Source: Dehalococcoidia bacterium (GTDB lineage Bacteria; Chloroflexota; Dehalococcoidia; Tepidiformales; Tepidiformaceae). From it: DNA of 34,421 bases. Under the pieces are notes generated by a model. The model searched no databases and was not told the DNA's origin. It saw nothing but the letters and a program-made list of their open reading frames with translations. A program made the position numbers and the translations under genes. The stretch lies in NCBI GenBank assembly GCA_007118095.1, contig SKSF01000144.1, positions 1-34,421 on the forward strand, in the 5' to 3' direction. Positions 9,957 through 18,270 of this stretch are shown here, one piece after another (the first letter of the stretch is position 1; every line of letters begins with the position of its first letter).

Positions 9957-10253
9957 TGGTGGCCTCCTGCCCGGGTCGCGACGTCGGGGCATCGCTCACC
10001 GGCTACTTCCTACGGTACAGCCGTCCCGCCGCTCGATCATCCGCCATTTGGGCGGGGACGCCTCCCCATCCGGACAGGGTGTGTGACCGGCGCCACGAAA
10101 TGCAGTCCGCAACCTGCCGCCGTCCCTTGCCCGCCCACAACTACCCTGGAACACACCACGCTCCCCCGGAACATGGCATGATATCGCTGCAGAGTCGCGG
10201 AAAGGCCCGTGGGATCCGCTAGAATGCGGGCCGATACCCGCGCGGAGGGGGAG
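9957..10253. other. Divergent intergenic region with promoter elements
   Basis: About 300 nt between the small zinc-protein gene (minus) and the cytidylate-kinase-like gene (plus). It holds the AGGAGG of the former, the TAGAAT box (10220-10225) and GGAGGGGGAG ribosome site of the latter, and a small inverted repeat GCGGG/CCCGC at 10226-10241 that would fold at the 5' end of the plus-strand message. No convincing open frame, RNA gene or repeat was seen. Confidence 0.45.
10220..10225 (+). promoter_or_regulatory. Putative -10 box TAGAAT of the cytidylate-kinase-like gene
   Basis: TAGAAT, 28 nt before ATG 10254; the leader carries a GCGGG/CCCGC hairpin and a strong ribosome site. Confidence 0.45.
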
Positions 10254-10889
10254 ATGAACACCCGTGTGATCACGATAGCGCGGACCATTGGGTCGCTGGG
10301 GGAGGACGTCGCGCGGACAATCGCACAGCGGCTGGACTTCCGGTACGTCGATTACCAGATCATCCAGGACGCAGCCCGCGAGGCCGGTGCATCGCCGGAA
10401 GCAGTGGGCGAAGCCCAGCGGACGCCCTCCATTATGACGCGCCTCCTGGAAACCCTCGCCCGCAACCCCAGCATGCCGGAAGCCGTCTGGGCAAACCCCA
10501 CTCCGCTGGTCGAATCGCCCCTTTATACGTCGAGCGATTACCGGAAGTTCGTGGAACACGTCATTGTCGATATCGCGGACCGGGGCGACGCCGTCATCGT
10601 TGGCCATGCGGCGCAGGCTGTGCTTCGCGGGCGCCCGGACACGGTCCGCACCCTGGTCAGTGGCAGCCTCGACCACAGGGTGCGCCGCATCATGAGCGGT
10701 ATGGGGATGGAGGAATCCGCCGCGCGGAAACTCGCCCGCCGTTCAGACCAGGACCGCGTCATTTACATGGACCGGTTCTACGAGACCCCCTGGCTGTCAC
10801 CGGACACGTACGACCTCTGCATCAACACCGACCACCTGAACCCCGAGCAGGCGGCCGAGATCGTCATCAAGACAGCGGAGTTGCGTTAA
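10254..10889 (+). CDS. Cytidylate-kinase-like family protein
   Basis: A 211-residue protein of the cytidylate kinase-like P-loop group. The N-terminus VITIARTIGSLGEDVARTIA followed by QRLDFRYVDYQIIQDAAREAG follows the pattern of these proteins (strand, loop, helix, then a YxDxxI segment). Later ADRGDAVIVGHAAQAVLRG and a basic lid region (RRIMSGMGMEESAARKLARRSDQDRVIYM) also match. The Walker A loop reads ARTIGSLGEDV without the usual GK(S/T), so nucleotide-kinase activity is uncertain. ATG 10254 is chosen because GGAGGGGGAG precedes it immediately and the family N-terminus starts there. It is followed after 20 nt by a small membrane-protein gene. Confidence 0.75.
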   Translation: MNTRVITIARTIGSLGEDVARTIAQRLDFRYVDYQIIQDAAREAGASPEAVGEAQRTPSIMTRLLETLARNPSMPEAVWANPTPLVESPLYTSSDYRKFVEHVIVDIADRGDAVIVGHAAQAVLRGRPDTVRTLVSGSLDHRVRRIMSGMGMEESAARKLARRSDQDRVIYMDRFYETPWLSPDTYDLCINTDHLNPEQAAEIVIKTAELR

Positions 10890-10909
10890 CCTGAGCTGCG
10901 GAGGCGCGT

Positions 10910-11206
10910 GTGGACATCGTCACGGCTTTCGCCCTGGTTTTTCTTGTCGGCCTCGCCGCAGCCTGGATACACGAACAACGCGTATGGAAGCGATTCCACA
11001 CGGCGCCAGTGCATGAGCCCGGGCCAGCAGCCCTGCTGCACACCGAACTACTGCGAGCCGGCGTGCGCGTCCGTTTCAAATCGACCAACGCCCTCACCGT
11101 CACCGCGTTGAGCCATCAGCTCTCAACGGTCGTGCTCGTTCACCGCGACGACGTCCACCACGCCGAGCGGGTCCGCGAAGACCTCCGCCAACGCGGAGAG
11201 CTCTGA
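10910..11206 (+). CDS. Small membrane-anchored protein, DUF2007-like tail
   Basis: A 98-residue protein with one N-terminal transmembrane helix (IVTAFALVFLVGLAAAWI) and a cytosolic part with the order helix-strand-strand: PAALLHTELLRAGVRVRFKS, STVVLVHRDDVHHAERVREDL. This resembles DUF2007-type signal-transducing-like domains (a LL..L...GI.. helix followed by the V.V...D...A ... L pattern), but the match is weak. GTG 10910 has GGAGG 6 nt upstream. It lies 20 nt after the cytidylate-kinase-like gene and is probably co-transcribed. No function is proposed. Confidence 0.5.
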   Translation: MDIVTAFALVFLVGLAAAWIHEQRVWKRFHTAPVHEPGPAALLHTELLRAGVRVRFKSTNALTVTALSHQLSTVVLVHRDDVHHAERVREDLRQRGEL

Positions 11207-11293
11207 ATCCGTGCCTCATGGCTGCGTGAAGACGTGGGCGAACCCCCTTCATTCCACGATGTGATCTGCGTTACACTCCAGTCGACCGACCGG

Positions 11294-11317
11294 TAAACTG
11301 GCTGCCAATGGCAGCTA
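11294..11317 (+). promoter_or_regulatory. P450 array promoter region: TAAACT box and inverted repeat
   Basis: TAAACT at 11294-11299 is a possible -10 box, 31 nt before ATG 11331. Directly after it lies the inverted repeat GCTGCC-AAT-GGCAGC (11301-11315), which would be either an operator or a hairpin at the very 5' end of the P450 message. A second TTACACT lies at 11269-11275. Confidence 0.4.
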
Positions 11318-11330
11318 TTGGAGTGACCCC

Positions 11331-12605
11331 ATGACGCAGGTAACGCTGAAGCCCGAAGACATCAACCTGAACGACCCGGAAATTTTCGAACGCAACCAGG
11401 CCCACCAGGTTTTCGACTATCTCCGCAACAACGAACCGATCCACTGGAATCCCGAAGGCGAGCGCAACGTGGGCTACTGGAACATCACGAAGTACGAAGA
11501 CGTGATGTTCATCTCCCGCAACCCCGAGCTCTTCATCTCCAGCAAAGGCATCACGTCGTTCTATCCGAAGGACGAATCCGAGCTCGATGAGCAGATGAGC
11601 GGCAACGGCAAGATGCTCATCACCATGGACCCCCCGCGCCACGTCCGCCTTCGCCGCCTGGTGAACAAAGGGTTCACCCCGCGCGCAGTGAACGCGATGG
11701 AAGACCACATCCGCGAGATCACCAACCAGGTGCTCGACGACGTCGCAAAGAAGGGCCGCTGCGACTTCGTACTCGATGTCGCCTCCCAGCTCCCGCTCGC
11801 CGTCATCTGCGGAATGATGGGGCTCGAAAAGAAAGACTGGCCCTACATGTTCGAGCTCACCAACAAGGTCCTCGGGCAGGGCGACCCCGAATACCAGACC
11901 GATGCCCCTGAAGAGTTGCGCGGCACACCCGAAGGAGCCCGCATCGCCGGGCAGATGGGCACCATGCAGATGTTCGGCTTCTTCGCCCAGCAACTCCAGG
12001 ACCGCAAGGAGCACCGCAAGGACGACCTCATCAGCCTGCTCGTCGACTCCGAAGTCGACGGCCAGCACCTCACCGACGAGGACATCCTCTGGTTCTGCTT
12101 CCTCCTCATCCTCGCCGGGAACGAAACCACGCGGAACGCCATTTCCGGCGGTCTGCTTGCACTCTCCGAACACCCTGACCAGCGGCAGCAGCTCCAAAAC
12201 GACATGTCCATGCTGCCCACGGCGATCGAAGAGATCCTCCGCTGGGTCTCCCCCGTCACCCACATGGCCCGCGTCGCCACGCAGGATGTCGAAATTCGCG
12301 GCACCACCATCAAGGAGGGGCAGCGCGTCGTCATGTGGTACCCCTCGGTCAACCGCGACGAGGACATCTTCCCCAATCCGCACACCTTCGACATCACCCG
12401 CCAGCCAAACGACCACCTGGCCTTCGGCATCGGCGAACACTTCTGCCTCGGGGCCGGCTTCGCCCGCCTTGAGCTCAAAGTCATGTTCGAAGAACTCTTC
12501 CGCCGGTTCCCGGACATCGAAAAAGACGGCGAACCCGAACGGCTCCGCTCCACGTTCATCGGCGGCATCAAGCACATGCCCGTGAAGTTCACCCCCGAAG
12601 CCTGA
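11331..12605 (+). CDS. Cytochrome P450, copy 1
   Basis: A 424-residue soluble bacterial P450 monooxygenase. The I-helix oxygen-activation motif AGNETTRN starts at Ala262, the ExxR pair is Glu301/Arg304 (EEILRW), and the heme loop FGIGEHFCLGAGFARLEL gives the thiolate ligand Cys372. The MWYPSVNRDEDIFPNPHTFD stretch and N-terminal YLRNNEPIHWN resemble the CYP124/125/142 type that hydroxylates steroid side chains and branched lipids; the substrate is inferred only. No membrane anchor is present. ATG 11331 has TTGGAG upstream. It heads an array with a ferredoxin and two further P450 genes; no ferredoxin reductase is encoded in the window. Confidence 0.93.
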   Translation: MTQVTLKPEDINLNDPEIFERNQAHQVFDYLRNNEPIHWNPEGERNVGYWNITKYEDVMFISRNPELFISSKGITSFYPKDESELDEQMSGNGKMLITMDPPRHVRLRRLVNKGFTPRAVNAMEDHIREITNQVLDDVAKKGRCDFVLDVASQLPLAVICGMMGLEKKDWPYMFELTNKVLGQGDPEYQTDAPEELRGTPEGARIAGQMGTMQMFGFFAQQLQDRKEHRKDDLISLLVDSEVDGQHLTDEDILWFCFLLILAGNETTRNAISGGLLALSEHPDQRQQLQNDMSMLPTAIEEILRWVSPVTHMARVATQDVEIRGTTIKEGQRVVMWYPSVNRDEDIFPNPHTFDITRQPNDHLAFGIGEHFCLGAGFARLELKVMFEELFRRFPDIEKDGEPERLRSTFIGGIKHMPVKFTPEA

Positions 12606-12623
12606 CAGGCGCGATACCATACC

Positions 12624-12646
12624 GGCCGGGGCAGGCTGCCCCGGCC
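12624..12646 (+). other. Intercistronic hairpin between P450 and ferredoxin
   Basis: GGCCGGGGCA (12624-12633) pairs perfectly with TGCCCCGGCC (12637-12646) around a 3-nt loop. No T-run follows, so it is not a standard terminator; it may stabilise the upstream message or lower read-through. Confidence 0.5.
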
Positions 12647-12676
12647 ACTCTGTGCCTGAATTATTGGAGGAAGACC

Positions 12677-12877
12677 ATGCGCGTATTCGTTGACCCGGAC
12701 CTCTGCGAGGGCCACTCGAAATGCGAAAAGTCCGCCCCGGCGGTCTTCGAAGTCCGTGACGACGACCTGAGCTATGTCCTGCTCGACCCCGTCCCCGAAG
12801 AGCACCGCGAAGGCGTCGAACGCGCCGTCCGCGTTTGCCCACGGGGCGCCATTGCCATGACCGAAGACAACGAATAA
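12677..12877 (+). CDS. [3Fe-4S]-type ferredoxin, P450 redox partner
   Basis: A 66-residue small ferredoxin of the type encoded beside P450 genes in actinobacteria and relatives; it hands electrons one at a time to the P450 heme. The cluster motif is Cys10-x2-His13-x2-Cys16 with the last ligand in Cys54-Pro55. His stands where [4Fe-4S] ferredoxins have the second Cys, which is the mark of the P450-linked [3Fe-4S] or histidine-containing group. The sequence is acidic, as usual. ATG 12677 is preceded by TTGGAGGAAG. It lies between P450 copies 1 and 2 and is the only ferredoxin in the window, so it may serve all three P450s. Confidence 0.93.
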   Translation: MRVFVDPDLCEGHSKCEKSAPAVFEVRDDDLSYVLLDPVPEEHREGVERAVRVCPRGAIAMTEDNE

Positions 12878-12882
12878 ACCCT

Positions 12883-12979
12883 CCCGGGCAGCCCGGGGCT
12901 ATTTGCGGGCGGCGCCCCCTTGAGGCGCCGTCGCGCCTTCGGTACGGTCAAATCAGTGCAACATGGCACGAATCGTGCC
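12883..12979 (+). other. Cluster of three inverted repeats between ferredoxin and P450 copy 2
   Basis: Three inverted repeats lie in the gap: CCCGGGC-A-GCCCGGG (12883-12897), CGGCGCC-7 nt-GGCGCCG (12910-12930) and GGCACGA-A-TCGTGCC (12965-12979). None has a T-run. The last one ends 14 nt before the P450 start and could be a transcription-factor operator or a stem next to the ribosome site. Confidence 0.45.
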
Positions 12980-12993
12980 GATTGGAGAAGCCG

Positions 12994-14259
12994 ATGACCC
13001 AGCTCGCAACACCGCTGGACGAACTCAACCTCAACCGTGCAGATCTCTTCGAACAGGGACAGGCGCACGATGTGTTCCGCTACCTGCGCGAACACCAGCC
13101 CGTGCACTGGAACCGCGAAGGAAAGCGCAACGTGGGCTTCTGGAACATCACGAAATACGAAGACGTGATGTTCATCTCCCGCAACCCCGAGCTCTTTATT
13201 TCCAGCAAGGACATCGGCTCCGCCTACCCAAAGGACGAATCGGAGTTCGACCCCGAAACCGACGACCGCGGCAAGCACCTCATCAAAATGGACCCGCCGC
13301 GCCATGTCCGCGTGCGCCGGCTGGTGAACAAGGGATTCACCCCGCGCGCCGTGAACGCGCTCGAACCGCATATCCGCGAGATCACCAACCACATCCTCGA
13401 TGACATCGAGCACAAAGAGCGCACCGACTTCGTCCTCGATGTCGCCTCTCAGCTCCCGCTCGCCGTCATCTGCGAAATGATGGGCGTCCCCCGCAAGGAC
13501 TGGCCCTACATGTTCCAGCTCACGAACAAGGTGCTCGGCGCAGCGGACAGCGAATACCAGACCGACGTCCCGGACGAGATCCGCGGGACCCCGGAAGGCG
13601 CACAGGAAACGGCCCGGCAGGGCATGCGCGAAATGCGCCAGTACTTCGCCGCCCAGCTCGCCGACCGCAAGGGCGAGCGCAAGGACGACCTGCTGAGCCT
13701 GCTGGTCGACTCGGAAGACAAGGGAGAGACGCTCACCGACGACGAGATCCTCTGGTTCGCCTTCCTGCTCATCGTCGCGGGCAACGAGACCACCCGAAAC
13801 GCCATCTCCGGCGGGCTTCACGTCCTCTCCGAACACCCGGAGCAGCGCAAAAAGCTCCAGGACGACATGTCCCTCCTCCCGTCCGCGGTCGAGGAGATAC
13901 TTCGCTGGGTCTCCCCCGTCATGCACATGGCCCGCGTCGCCACCGACGATGTCGAAATCCGCGGTACCCGGATCAAGAAGGGCGAACGCGTCGTCATGTG
14001 GTACCCCTCGGTCAACCGCGACGAGGACATCTTCGCCGACCCCTATACCTTCAACATCACCCGTGACCCCAACGACCACCTGGCCTTCGGGATCGGCGAA
14101 CACTTCTGCCTTGGCGCTGGCTTCGCCCGCCTCGAACTAAAGGTGATGTTCGAAGAGCTCTTCCGCCGCTTCCCCGATATCCAGGTCGACGGCGAACCGG
14201 AGCGCCTGCGCTCCAACTTCATCGGTGGCGTGAAGCACCTGCCCGTGAAACTTCGCTAA
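12994..14259 (+). CDS. Cytochrome P450, copy 2
   Basis: A 421-residue P450 with the same layout as its neighbours: N-terminal LNLNRADLFEQGQAHDVFRY, I-helix AGNETTRN, EEILRW and heme loop FGIGEHFCLGAGFARLEL with Cys372. The start is the ATG at 12994, with TTGGAGAAG upstream; the frame remains open farther back but the extra residues overlap the ferredoxin gene and lack family character. It is closest to copy 3, with which it shares a 95-nt stretch of identical DNA (13798-13892 against 15126-15220), a sign of recent duplication or gene conversion. The substrate-contact regions (between about residues 180 and 240) differ most among the three copies. Confidence 0.93.
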   Translation: MTQLATPLDELNLNRADLFEQGQAHDVFRYLREHQPVHWNREGKRNVGFWNITKYEDVMFISRNPELFISSKDIGSAYPKDESEFDPETDDRGKHLIKMDPPRHVRVRRLVNKGFTPRAVNALEPHIREITNHILDDIEHKERTDFVLDVASQLPLAVICEMMGVPRKDWPYMFQLTNKVLGAADSEYQTDVPDEIRGTPEGAQETARQGMREMRQYFAAQLADRKGERKDDLLSLLVDSEDKGETLTDDEILWFAFLLIVAGNETTRNAISGGLHVLSEHPEQRKKLQDDMSLLPSAVEEILRWVSPVMHMARVATDDVEIRGTRIKKGERVVMWYPSVNRDEDIFADPYTFNITRDPNDHLAFGIGEHFCLGAGFARLELKVMFEELFRRFPDIQVDGEPERLRSNFIGGVKHLPVKLR

Positions 14260-14268
14260 CCGCACGCT

Positions 14269-14307
14269 GCCGCCACCAGCCGGCCCGCCTCCCGGCAACC
14301 TGGCGGC
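14269..14307 (+). other. Nested inverted repeat ahead of P450 copy 3
   Basis: GCCGCCA (14269-14275) pairs with TGGCGGC (14301-14307), and inside it GCCGG (14279-14283) pairs with CCGGC (14292-14296). It ends 14 nt before ATG 14322, just ahead of the GAGAGGAGAG ribosome site. Confidence 0.4.
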
Positions 14308-14321
14308 GAGAGGAGAGATAG

Positions 14322-15587
14322 ATGACGGCACCCGCCTGGACGCTTGAAGACCTGAACCTCAACGCCCCGGACCACTTCGAACGCGGGGAAGCGCACGAGA
14401 TATTGCGCTACCTGCGGCAGCACCAGCCGGTCCACTGGAACAAGGAATGGCAGGGGCGTGTCGGCTTCTGGAACATCACGAAGTACGACGACGTGATGTT
14501 CATCTCCCGTAATCCCGAGCTGTTCATATCCAGCAAGAACATCAGCTCCGCCTACCCCATCGACGAGTCAGAGATCGACCCCGAGACCGACGGCCAGGGC
14601 AAGCACCTCATCACGATGGACCCGCCGCGTCATGTCCGCATGCGGCGGCTCGTAAACAAGGGCTTCACCCCGCGCGCGGTCAACGCGCTCGAACCGCACA
14701 TCCGCGACATCACGAACCACATCCTCGACGACATCGAGCACAAGGAACGCACCGACTTCGTCCTCGATGTCGCGTCCCAGCTCCCGCTCGCCGTCATTTG
14801 CGAAATGATGGGCGTCCCCCGCAAAGACTGGCCGCTCATGTTCCAGCTCACCAACAAGGTGCTCGGCTCCAGTGACCCTGAATACCAGGACGATATCCCT
14901 GCTGAGATGCGCGGCACGCTCGAAGGCGCCCGCATGACGAACAAGAACGGCCGCCTCCAGATGTTCGAGTACTTCCAGCAAGCCATCGAAGAGCGCCGGG
15001 CCAACGGCGGGGAAGATCTGCTCAGCACCATCGTCGAGTCCGAAGTGGACGGCCAGGAGCTCACCGACGAGGAGATCCGCTGGTTCGCCTTCCTCCTGAT
15101 CGTCGCCGGGAACGAGACCACCCGGAACGCCATCTCCGGCGGGCTTCACGTCCTCTCCGAACACCCGGAGCAGCGCAAAAAGCTCCAGGACGACATGTCC
15201 CTCCTCCCGTCCGCGGTCGAAGAGATCCTCCGCTGGGTCTCACCCGTCATGCACATGGCCCGCGTCGCCACCGACGACGTCGAAATCCGCGGCACCCGGA
15301 TCAAGAAGGGCGAACGCGTCGTCATGTGGTACCCGTCGGTCAACCGGGACGAAGAAGTCTTCCCCGACCCCTACACCTTCGACATCACCCGCGAACCCAA
15401 CGACCACCTTGCATTCGGGATCGGTGAACACTTCTGCCTCGGCGCCGGCTTCGCCCGCCTCGAACTAAAGGTGATGTTCGAGGAGCTCTTCCGCCGCTTC
15501 CCGGATGTCCAGGTCGAAGGCGAGCCGGACCGCCTGCGCTCGAACTTCATCGGCGGCGTGAAGCACCTGCCCGTGAAGCTCCGCTGA
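14322..15587 (+). CDS. Cytochrome P450, copy 3
   Basis: A 421-residue P450, same length as copy 2, with AGNETTRN, EEILRW and FGIGEHFCLGAGFARLEL (Cys372). The middle of the protein (YFQQAIEERRANGGEDLLSTIVESE) is clearly different from copies 1 and 2, whereas residues from the I-helix to the C-terminus are almost the same as in copy 2. This suggests one shared redox partner and heme environment with divergent substrate pockets. The ribosome site GAGAGGAGAG precedes ATG 14322. It is the last P450 of the array; the next gene downstream is a decayed small gene. Confidence 0.93.
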   Translation: MTAPAWTLEDLNLNAPDHFERGEAHEILRYLRQHQPVHWNKEWQGRVGFWNITKYDDVMFISRNPELFISSKNISSAYPIDESEIDPETDGQGKHLITMDPPRHVRMRRLVNKGFTPRAVNALEPHIRDITNHILDDIEHKERTDFVLDVASQLPLAVICEMMGVPRKDWPLMFQLTNKVLGSSDPEYQDDIPAEMRGTLEGARMTNKNGRLQMFEYFQQAIEERRANGGEDLLSTIVESEVDGQELTDEEIRWFAFLLIVAGNETTRNAISGGLHVLSEHPEQRKKLQDDMSLLPSAVEEILRWVSPVMHMARVATDDVEIRGTRIKKGERVVMWYPSVNRDEEVFPDPYTFDITREPNDHLAFGIGEHFCLGAGFARLELKVMFEELFRRFPDVQVEGEPDRLRSNFIGGVKHLPVKLR

Positions 15588-15777: not shown

Positions 15778-15971
15778 AAGTGCACTATTTCGAGGAGACC
15801 GACACCCTGTACATCGAGCTCCGCGGCGCCAAAATCGCCGAGACACGCGATCTCGATGAGAACACGCTGCTTGACCTCGACAGCACCGGGAACCTGTGCG
15901 CCATCACCATCAAGCACGCCAGCGACCGCACCGACGTCCACCGGGTCACGGTTGAAAGTCTGGCCGCCTGA
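15774..15971 (+). CDS. DUF2283 family small protein
   Basis: A 65-residue protein of the DUF2283 family: VHYFEETDTLYIELRGAKIA, then ETRDLDENTLLDLDSTGNLC followed by AITIKHAS, matching the family pattern of a strand-rich domain (D.LYI.L, a Glu/Asp-rich hairpin, then G.L.gIei..AS). The GTG at 15774 is preferred since the fold starts there and it overlaps the stop of the preceding decayed gene by four bases. DUF2283 genes often sit beside small DUF4258-type genes and have been suspected of being antitoxin-like; no activity is established from this sequence. The stop is 3 nt from that of the convergent hemerythrin-like gene. Confidence 0.8.
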   Translation: MKVHYFEETDTLYIELRGAKIAETRDLDENTLLDLDSTGNLCAITIKHASDRTDVHRVTVESLAA

Positions 15972-15974
15972 CCA

Positions 15975-16457
15975 TCACTCCCGCGGCTGGGGGGCGGCCT
16001 CCAGCTCCGGGACGTATGCGTCCACGTCTTCCTTGAGCGCGTCAAGCTCGCCATCTGTGAGCTTCCCCTGCGTCACCTCGAACAGCACCCGTTCTTCCCA
16101 CCGGATGTGGTCCTGCAGGCGCTGGCCAAACTCGCCCAGGGCTTCCCGCCGCTCGGCCGGGTCCGACGTATCGCGCATCCTCGAAACGAGCGCTGCCATA
16201 TCCAGGTGGTCATGCGTCGTCCGTTCGATCGTTTCGTCGCCACCGGGGACGTGCCGGACCAGCCTCGCCAGGAGACACTCCCCCTCCACCCGGAAATGCG
16301 GCAACAGACCCGCCGACCAGAACGCCAGGAGGTCGCTGTACAGCTCCTCGGCCGCCGCATCGTCCGCTTCCGGCAGCTCCTTCAGGATGCGCCGCGCCAT
16401 CACCAGCCCGTGGTGGTGGTCCCAGGAAAGCCGAACCAATCGCTCGTCACGCTTCAT
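15975..16457 (-). CDS. Hemerythrin HHE-domain protein
   Basis: A 160-residue four-helix protein of the hemerythrin/HHE cation-binding family. His-rich helix motifs are visible: LSWDHHHGLVMARR near the N-terminus, LLPHFRVEGECLLARL, THDHLDMAALV and DHIRWEERVLFEV. Together they provide the His and Glu/Asp ligands of a non-heme di-iron site. The DHHHGL type resembles proteins involved in oxygen, nitric-oxide or iron-stress responses. The start is the ATG at 16457, which lies 7 nt after a TAGGCT box and begins just before the first helix; a longer frame to 16595 runs into the divergent AOR promoter and adds no recognisable sequence. Confidence 0.85.
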   Translation of the reverse strand: MKRDERLVRLSWDHHHGLVMARRILKELPEADDAAAEELYSDLLAFWSAGLLPHFRVEGECLLARLVRHVPGGDETIERTTHDHLDMAALVSRMRDTSDPAERREALGEFGQRLQDHIRWEERVLFEVTQGKLTDGELDALKEDVDAYVPELEAAPQPRE

Positions 16458-16464
16458 GACCCGC

Positions 16465-16470
16465 AGCCTA
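16465..16470 (-). promoter_or_regulatory. Putative -10 box TAGGCT of the hemerythrin-like gene
   Basis: TAGGCT on the minus strand, 7 nt before ATG 16457; GCGGGTC between them has no purine-rich ribosome site. Confidence 0.5.
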
Positions 16471-16535
16471 CCACCCTCTGCCGCGCATGGCCCTTTCACG
16501 GAAGACCGCAACCCACCGCCAACGGATGACTGCTG

Positions 16536-16541
16536 TAGGAT
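16536..16541 (+). promoter_or_regulatory. Putative -10 box TAGGAT of the AOR gene
   Basis: TAGGAT, 37 nt before ATG 16579; the leader carries ACAGGAGG as ribosome site. It is divergent from the hemerythrin promoter 66 nt away. Confidence 0.4.
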
Positions 16542-16578
16542 GTCCTCCACGGCAGGCAGAGATGACAGGAGGCTGCGT

Positions 16579-18270
16579 ATGGATATCGACCGCATTGTCC
16601 GCGTTGACTTGTCGAGCGGCGCTATCCGAGAAGAACAGGCGCCATCCCGCTACGAAATCCTCGGCGGGCGCGCCCTGACCGCACAGATGCTGCTCGATGA
16701 GACCGACGCACGCGTACATCCCCTTGCGAAAGACGCAAAGCTCTTCATCGCGCCCGGGCTCCTGGGCGGCACCGCCGTCACCACCAGCGGCCGCACCAGT
16801 TTCGGCTTCAAAAGCCCCCTCACCGGCGGTACAAAAGAAGCCAACGTAGGTGGCCAGCTCGGCCACCGGCTCGCGCGCCTCGGCATCAAGGCTATCGTGC
16901 TCGAAGGGACCTCGCCCGACGGCTGGCAGCGGCTGGACATCGATAACGACGGTGTGCGTCTCTCGGATGCGAGCAACCTCGCGGGCCGGTCAAACTACGA
17001 CCTCCACCGCGAACTCGTCGGCGAAGCGCTCAACACCCGCGCCGCTGCCACCATTGGGCCCGCCGGCGAGCACCGCCTCTCCTCGGCAAGTGTCGCCGTC
17101 ACCGACCCCGAAGGCCGCCCCACCCGTCACGCAGCGCGCGGCGGGCCGGGCGCCGTGATGGGCGCGAAGGGACTCAAAGCTATCGTGGTCGACGACGATG
17201 GCGCGCCCCGGGTCGTCCCTGGCGAGAAGAAGGACGAGTTTCGCAAGGAAGTCACCAAGTTCAGCAAAGTCGTGCTCGAAGACCCGCGCACGCACAACCT
17301 GAACAAGACCGGCACCGCTGGCGTTGTGAAATTCGTCAACCGCGACAACGTGCAGTCGATGCCCACGCGGAACCATCGCCACGGCACCTGGAGCCTCGCC
17401 GACACCATCAGCGGCCAGGAGATCGACCGGCTCGGCCAGGAACGCGGCGGCAAGATGCTCCCCTGCATGGCTGGCTGCGTCATCAAATGCGCCATCCTCT
17501 TCAACGACGAACACGGCCAGCACGTCACCAGCGCGCTCGAATTCGAGACCATCGCGCTGCTCGGCTCGAACTGCGAGATCGGTCCCGCTGACGCGGTCGC
17601 CGAACTCGACCGCATGTGCGACGACATCGGTCTCGACACCATCGAAGTAGGCAACGCGATGGGCGTCGCCATGGAAGCAGGCGTGCTCCCCTGGGGCGAC
17701 TTCGAAGGTGCAAAGCGCCTGCTCGAAGAGGTACGCGAAGGCACGCCGCTCGGCCGCATCATCGGCAACGGCACAGCCCACGTCGCCCGCACCTACGGCA
17801 TCGACCGCGTGCCGGTGGTCAAGGGCCAGGGCCTACCCGCCTGGGAGCCACGCACCCTGAAGGGTATGGGCATCACCTACAGCACCAGCCCGCAGGGCGC
17901 CGACCACACAGCCGGCATGGTCACGGCCCGCGGCGCAACCGCCGACACCCTGGTGAAGCAGAGCCGCCACGAACAGCTCGTGATGATGGCCATCGACTCG
18001 GTCGGCGTGTGCCAGTTCTCGAATGCGCTGCCCGGCGATATGGCCACCTTCGTCGCCAACCGCTTCGGTATCGACTACGACGACGGCAAGGTGCTGGAGA
18101 TGGCCCGTTCCGGGATCGACGCCGAGCGCGAGTTCAATCGCCGTGCCGGGTTCGATAAGGGCGACGACCGCCTGCCCGCCTGGCTGCTCGACGAACCGCT
18201 GGAACTGCCCGACGGCCCCGGCACCTTCGATATCGACGACGCGCTGGTCGACGCGGTCTGGTCATCGTAG
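16579..18270 (+). CDS. aor: Aldehyde ferredoxin oxidoreductase family protein (tungsten/molybdenum bis-pterin)
   Basis: A 563-residue AOR-family enzyme; members oxidise aldehydes to acids (or reduce acids) with a W- or Mo-bis-pyranopterin and one [4Fe-4S] cluster, passing electrons to ferredoxin. The N-terminal domain shows RVDLSSGAIREE, LGGRALTAQMLLDE and TSGRTSFGFKSPLTGG, then NVGGQLGHRLARLGIKAI. The cluster ligands are Cys296, Cys300 and Cys304 (CMAGCVIKC, spacing x3-x3) and Cys478 (GVCQFS). The classic archaeal AOR spacing is CxxCxxxC; the spacing here is that of a bacterial subgroup. ATG 16579 has ACAGGAGG upstream. No small ferredoxin subunit is adjacent, so it would use a free ferredoxin. 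The natural aldehyde is unknown. Confidence 0.9.
   Translation: MDIDRIVRVDLSSGAIREEQAPSRYEILGGRALTAQMLLDETDARVHPLAKDAKLFIAPGLLGGTAVTTSGRTSFGFKSPLTGGTKEANVGGQLGHRLARLGIKAIVLEGTSPDGWQRLDIDNDGVRLSDASNLAGRSNYDLHRELVGEALNTRAAATIGPAGEHRLSSASVAVTDPEGRPTRHAARGGPGAVMGAKGLKAIVVDDDGAPRVVPGEKKDEFRKEVTKFSKVVLEDPRTHNLNKTGTAGVVKFVNRDNVQSMPTRNHRHGTWSLADTISGQEIDRLGQERGGKMLPCMAGCVIKCAILFNDEHGQHVTSALEFETIALLGSNCEIGPADAVAELDRMCDDIGLDTIEVGNAMGVAMEAGVLPWGDFEGAKRLLEEVREGTPLGRIIGNGTAHVARTYGIDRVPVVKGQGLPAWEPRTLKGMGITYSTSPQGADHTAGMVTARGATADTLVKQSRHEQLVMMAIDSVGVCQFSNALPGDMATFVANRFGIDYDDGKVLEMARSGIDAEREFNRRAGFDKGDDRLPAWLLDEPLELPDGPGTFDIDDALVDAVWSS

Follow-up and report, generated by a model that had tools for sequence, protein, structure and literature searches.

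The window, by which we mean the whole 34,421-nucleotide stretch of DNA analysed here, belongs to a draft assembly (3.23 Mb, 227 contigs) and contains a tandem array of cytochrome P450 genes. The gene order is P450 (copy 1, hereafter c1), ferredoxin, P450 (c2), P450 (c3), a DUF2283 reading frame and, at 15859-18267, a gene for an aldehyde ferredoxin oxidoreductase (AFOR). The genes and intragenic segments under discussion are as follows:

11331-12605, + strand: P450 copy 1 (c1), 424 aa, from reading frame and alignment.
12677-12877, + strand: 66-aa single-cluster ferredoxin, encoded between c1 and c2 (Pfam Fer4_15, E 2.9e-14; Fer4_13, 3.3e-11).
12994-14259, + strand: P450 copy 2 (c2), 421 aa (PF00067, E 3.7e-40; best PDB match CYP125MRCA 8vxi, E 9.7e-118).
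13534-13752, + strand: fast-diverging segment of c2, residues 181-253 (from amino-acid identity to c3 and dN/dS).
13750-14259, + strand: putatively homogenised C-terminal part of c2, residue 253 to stop, with an approximate start (scan break at residue 263; from identity, pS drop and amino-acid ratio).
13798-13892, + strand: 95-nt block in c2, 31 full codons (269-299) and two bases of codon 300 (exact, maximal match to 15126-15220).
14322-15587, + strand: P450 copy 3 (c3), 421 aa (PF00067 in a search of its own genome; 81.5% amino-acid identity to c2).
14862-15080, + strand: fast-diverging segment of c3, residues 181-253 (same basis as in c2).
15078-15587, + strand: putatively homogenised C-terminal part of c3, with an approximate start (same basis as in c2).
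15126-15220, + strand: 95-nt block in c3 (exact, maximal match to 13798-13892).

The encoded proteins match the P450 profile PF00067 and carry AGNETT at residues 262-267, ExxR at 301 and Cys372, which we take to be the I-helix acid-threonine motif, the ExxR motif and the heme cysteine; all three stand at the same numbers in c1, c2 and c3, as an earlier sequence-only reading of this DNA had noted for the cysteine. Of the solved structures, those of an ancestral CYP125 (CYP125MRCA 8vxi) and of CYP124 (6t0f/2wm4) come closest, and the array P450s form a Chloroflexota branch, 32-34% identical to the five Mycobacterium loci found. Judged by similarity, c2 and c3 are CYP125/CYP124-like P450s, for which steroid or branched-lipid oxidation is a candidate role. 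The best named relatives derive from MAGs of Dehalococcoidia, Chloroflexota and a Tepidiforma sp. and from Tepidiforma flava, which points to a Tepidiformaceae-like genome; among c1-c3 it is c1 that stands closest to the genes of relatives (whose family P450s match it best).

At 20 of the 26 loci of relatives a small ferredoxin gene lies immediately 5' of such a P450, and at 4 of the 26 an AFOR-like gene adjoins the P450; the count leaves out our own loci, distant rows and repeat rows from one contig. The arrangement suggests that an electron-transfer or aldehyde pathway is shared. One same-genus genome (G001; L113 1-2600) has upstream genes syntenic with window 10209-15587 and yields no P450 match in the 1.9 kb from its cytidylate-kinase-like gene to the contig end, indicating that, as far as that contig reaches, members of the genus differ in having the array. 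Our own genome carries a fourth close P450 gene (c4) on contig C22 (L040 1944-3206), with 71% identity to c2; it sits on a long branch and adjoins a frame that reads as SDR-like from its sequence, on a contig of only 3863 bases.

The sequence-only reading had singled out the 95-nt block shared by c2 and c3 as a sign of gene conversion or recent duplication. The identity itself is confirmed, third positions included (31 consecutive ones agree), and the match cannot be extended; the block lies, as had been described, after the I-helix and up to the ExxR region, starting just past AGNETT and ending just short of E301. Its surroundings were said to diverge strongly, and this holds for the middle of the genes (47% amino-acid identity over residues 181-253) and fails for the flanks of the block, as residues 253-421 are 92.7% identical at the DNA level, against 77.4% for residues 1-252. 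How unusual the run appears depends on the null. When the 208 mismatches of the whole gene are dealt randomly by codon position, P is 5e-5 (the floor of 20,000 trials); when the dealing is confined to the last 507 nt and its 37 mismatches, P is 0.009. Restricting the run test to degenerate codons with the same amino acid gives P 0.019 for the whole gene, 0.021 with stratification by amino acid, and 0.024 and 0.032 for two cuts of the C-terminal part. Over the 377 polymorphic sites of the three genes the c2-c3 run is again at the floor (P 5e-5), and over 111 silent sites P is 0.045 before correction for three pairs. Confined to the 149 codons shown to tolerate change, the longest-run test fails to reach significance (P 0.18 for the whole gene, 0.24 for the C-terminal part), and c2 equals c3 at 13 of 13 such codons inside the block versus 86 of 136 outside (Fisher P 0.005), or versus 44 of 65 in the C half outside the block (P 0.016).

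A control bears on the reading of these values. One tandem pair of a relative (G029), 74% identical overall, has an exact run of 70 nt over the heme-binding motif, where the DNA is conserved in ten related genes; long exact runs can thus arise from conservation. Conversion in that pair was considered and rejected, the 70-nt stretch differing at 3 of 72 sites between the G029 and G013 orthologues, close to the average of 3.9%. We conclude that the 95-nt block is by itself moderately unusual and suggestive, a pointer rather than a proof; it may represent a smaller tract of later date, the most fortunate portion of a larger tract, or chance.

The more substantial signal extends from the I-helix region to the stop codon. 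Residues 254-344 are identical between c2 and c3 at 91 consecutive positions, and synonymous divergence along the genes is not uniform: c2-c3 pS falls from 0.435 (residues 1-250) to 0.232 (residues 251-421), against 0.458/0.467 for c1-c2, 0.449/0.432 for c1-c3, 0.504/0.609 for c1-c4, 0.536/0.554 for c2-c4 and 0.523/0.533 for c3-c4. Expressed relative to the mean with c1, c2-c3 pS is 0.96 before residue 252 and 0.52 after, a drop with P 0.0003 for a fixed break that was picked after seeing the data, and P 0.016 in a free scan, in which the best break falls at residue 263. At codons with the same amino acid in c1-c3 the drop is smaller (0.386 to 0.266; pairs with c1, 0.42/0.42 and 0.43/0.41); at same-amino-acid codons the identical fraction is 0.72 in the N-terminal versus 0.82 in the C-terminal part, a marginal difference (Fisher P 0.049), and a maximum chi-square test finds no break (P 0.22). 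Altogether, c2-c3 divergence in the C-terminal part amounts, relative to the N-terminal part, to about half for synonymous sites and to a fifth for amino acids. The likeness stops at the gene ends, given that neither the 5' nor the 3' flanks of c2 and c3 show similarity above shuffles (P 0.53 and 0.56).

Placed within the family, this pair is extreme. We aligned 39 sequences, from 42 extracted matches and three own copies, after dropping six partial rows (three of G015, and one each of G024, G010 and G006). The ratio of C- to N-terminal amino-acid divergence for c2-c3, 0.19, is the lowest of 123 family pairs of 70-92% identity (next 0.455, median 0.68), and the corresponding pS ratio, 0.54, ranks below all others among 291 pairs in the pS range 0.25-0.50 (next 0.63; 35 sequences, four distant rows left out). 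A rate-stratified amino-acid test sees 9 c2-c3 differences where 26.3 are expected, which is at the floor; the test is also low in the five other own pairs (P 0.00025 to 0.035) and in that respect is not specific, the effect for c2-c3 being larger (0.34 of expectation versus 0.69-0.81 in the other own pairs). Among relatives, eight aligned tandem pairs show no homogenisation (C/N ratios 0.54-0.60), and these pairs form two separate lines in both whole-gene and C-part trees.

Topology tests, run on 15 of the 39 sequences, give a less decided picture. For residues 1-240 the best grouping is c2 with c4, and c2+c3 is rejected (p-AU 0.04 for nucleotides, 0.03 for amino acids); for residues 241-421 c2+c4 is again preferred and c2+c3 is not rejected (0.125 and 0.052). 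Over the whole gene c2+c3 is rejected (0.037 and 0.014), and a likelihood walk finds no significant topology switch along the gene (P 0.32 and 0.38). Only within a 96-nt tract do c2 and c3 group without c4 (support 98/91); in a quick tree of all 39 sequences, with the cut placed at residue 251, c2 joins c3 (support 0.48). The c4 branch is long, and signal past residue 256 is near nil (+0.5 log-likelihood units for nucleotides, -0.3 for amino acids).

We consider it probable, if well short of certain, that c2 and c3 are old tandem paralogues whose C-terminal part, some 500 nt, became homogenised through ectopic recombination inside the genome, gene conversion being its simplest form. The alternative of recent duplication raised by the sequence-only reading is out for the whole gene, as the N-terminal pS of c2-c3 (0.435) equals that of either copy to c1; conversion is the half of that reading that stands, with C-terminal pS at half that of the pairs with c1. 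Homogenisation likewise stands as a description, with the unit enlarged from the 95 nt to the whole I-helix-to-stop part. The first copy has no clear part in the exchange: stretches of low pS occur between c1 and c2 (residues ~31-80) and between c1 and c3 (~180-270), and the corresponding run tests give P 0.044 and 0.116 at all sites and 0.78 and 0.85 at silent sites, such that conversion with c1 is not claimed.

The same observations could be produced, in principle, by selection without any recombination, with a C-terminal part kept slow by purifying selection, a fast N-terminal part and F-G segment, and the 95-nt run as a favourable conserved stretch. Such an account would sit well with the identical best topology in both parts, with silent-site tests that are weak or non-significant, with the exact 70-nt match that a relative's pair shows where the DNA is conserved, and with a family variability that is lower in the C-terminal than in the N-terminal part (0.242 versus 0.382). 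Constraint should, however, lower the other pairs too, and in those pairs the C-terminal pS equals or exceeds the N-terminal value; nor does it readily place c2-c3 at the extreme of both the 123 and the 291 pairs. We regard this account as unlikely, while granting it some weight.

Two further explanations concern how the genes, or their assembly, were joined. Unequal crossing-over in the I-helix region would leave one copy a hybrid, with its C-terminal part and 3' flank newly duplicated; the direct tandem repeats speak for this, and the pattern of divergence expected inside the genes is the same. At this age a duplicated 3' flank should nevertheless remain recognisable, and the 3' flanks of c2 and c3 are 39% identical ungapped (P 0.56), over a comparison of only 62 nt, making this route very improbable. 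An assembly artefact, for which a draft of 227 contigs and the contigs of three other genomes that end in the same gene (residues 268-275) might speak, appears to us barely credible: the frames are intact, 37 differences remain in the last 507 nt, and a half-swap at the common block would exchange the halves rather than make them alike.

Under the favoured reading, gene conversion between c2 and c3, the course of events would begin with direct tandem P450 paralogues of considerable age. Homologous recombination between them would then have made the C-terminal part alike, from residue ~253-263 to the stop, in its simplest form as a non-reciprocal conversion within the direct tandem array. The tract would end inside the coding sequence, bounded on the left by the more divergent N-terminal part (the edge being approximate, residues 253-263) and on the right by the dissimilar 3' flank; a tract confined to the genes fits the dissimilar flanks, since a crossover would have duplicated the 3' flank. 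Amino-acid distances to c4 in the C-terminal part are alike (c2-c4 0.213, c3-c4 0.219), and neither copy is marked as donor.

The segment just upstream would have stayed outside the tract and diverged fast. Residues 181-253, presumably the F-G region by P450 topology, have amino-acid identities of 47% (c2-c3), 60% (c1-c2) and 53% (c1-c3), and between c2 and c3 the segment is sharply bounded, its neighbours (residues 106-180 and 254-344) being 96% and 100% identical. Over residues 181-245 dN/dS is 0.66 for c2-c3, 0.71 for c1-c3, 0.39 for c1-c2 and 0.36 for c2-c4, against 0.06-0.20 in eight pairs of relatives. This fits a diversifying substrate part, and relaxed constraint would give the same picture. 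The proposal that a substrate half diversifies while a heme/redox half is homogenised is accordingly borne out in part, by the high dN/dS of residues 181-245; its division is too clean, in that substrate-contacting stretches near ExxR and the C-terminal end (as we assume from P450 topology) fall in the homogenised part. The c2 and c3 enzymes would probably have their heme and redox-partner surfaces in common and act on different ranges of substrates.

In genomes of three other genera a contig breaks off within the P450 gene, at residues 268 (L063 1-4209, G015), 269 (L064 1-5184, G010) and 275 (L065 1-5651, G006); on the G015 contig the reading frame of the first P450 copy shifts near residue 275-283. 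Searches with the terminal 101 bases of each contig, in the binned contigs of the same three genomes, return only the end itself and matches of 79-87%, and no exact 20-mer is common to the G015 contig end and the first copy on that contig. It is tempting to extend the case into a core-and-cassette scheme, in which the CYP125-like arrays of this family repeatedly copy an I-helix-to-stop core between tandem copies while the F-G lid (181-253) is kept diverse. The elevated F-G dN/dS (0.36-0.71 versus 0.06-0.20) and the three contig ends hint at such a scheme, the eight relatives' tandem pairs and the repeat search at the contig ends so far lend it no support, and we think it quite doubtful; if true, it would yield enzymes with a common redox partner and heme chemistry and different substrates.

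Comparable processes are described in the literature. The tandem immunity-gene paralogues esaG and tipC recombine via blocks of high similarity (PMC9484751); like c2/c3 they are tandem bacterial paralogues, and, in contrast to one P450 pair in one genome, they are small genes in many copies with population data. Partial conversion of P450 paralogues is reported for the insect pairs CYP6B8/CYP6B28 and CYP6B9/CYP6B27, where it is 5'-polar (PMC7830528), whereas in c2/c3 the 3' part is affected, and for human CYP21A2, where partial conversion is disease-causing (PMC4076195) and the donor is a pseudogene, whereas the c2 and c3 frames are both intact. Long-lasting concerted evolution in prokaryotes, as in tuf, also involves paralogue conversion within one genome (PMC6053082), there keeping whole genes alike over long times, here affecting part of a gene in one lineage. 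In the titles and opening abstract lines returned by full-text searches of open-licence literature, no bacterial P450 gene-conversion case stood out, and no paper mentioning both Tepidiforma and cytochrome P450 came up.

The c2/c3 case adds to known kinds, namely conversion of P450 paralogues in insects and humans and recombination or conversion of bacterial paralogues, and leaves the understanding of P450s and of gene conversion as it was. If correct, it would exemplify, among bacterial P450s, how conversion can divide a homogenised heme/redox part from a substrate-access part that is free to vary, and would serve as a warning that whole-gene trees of such arrays combine two histories.
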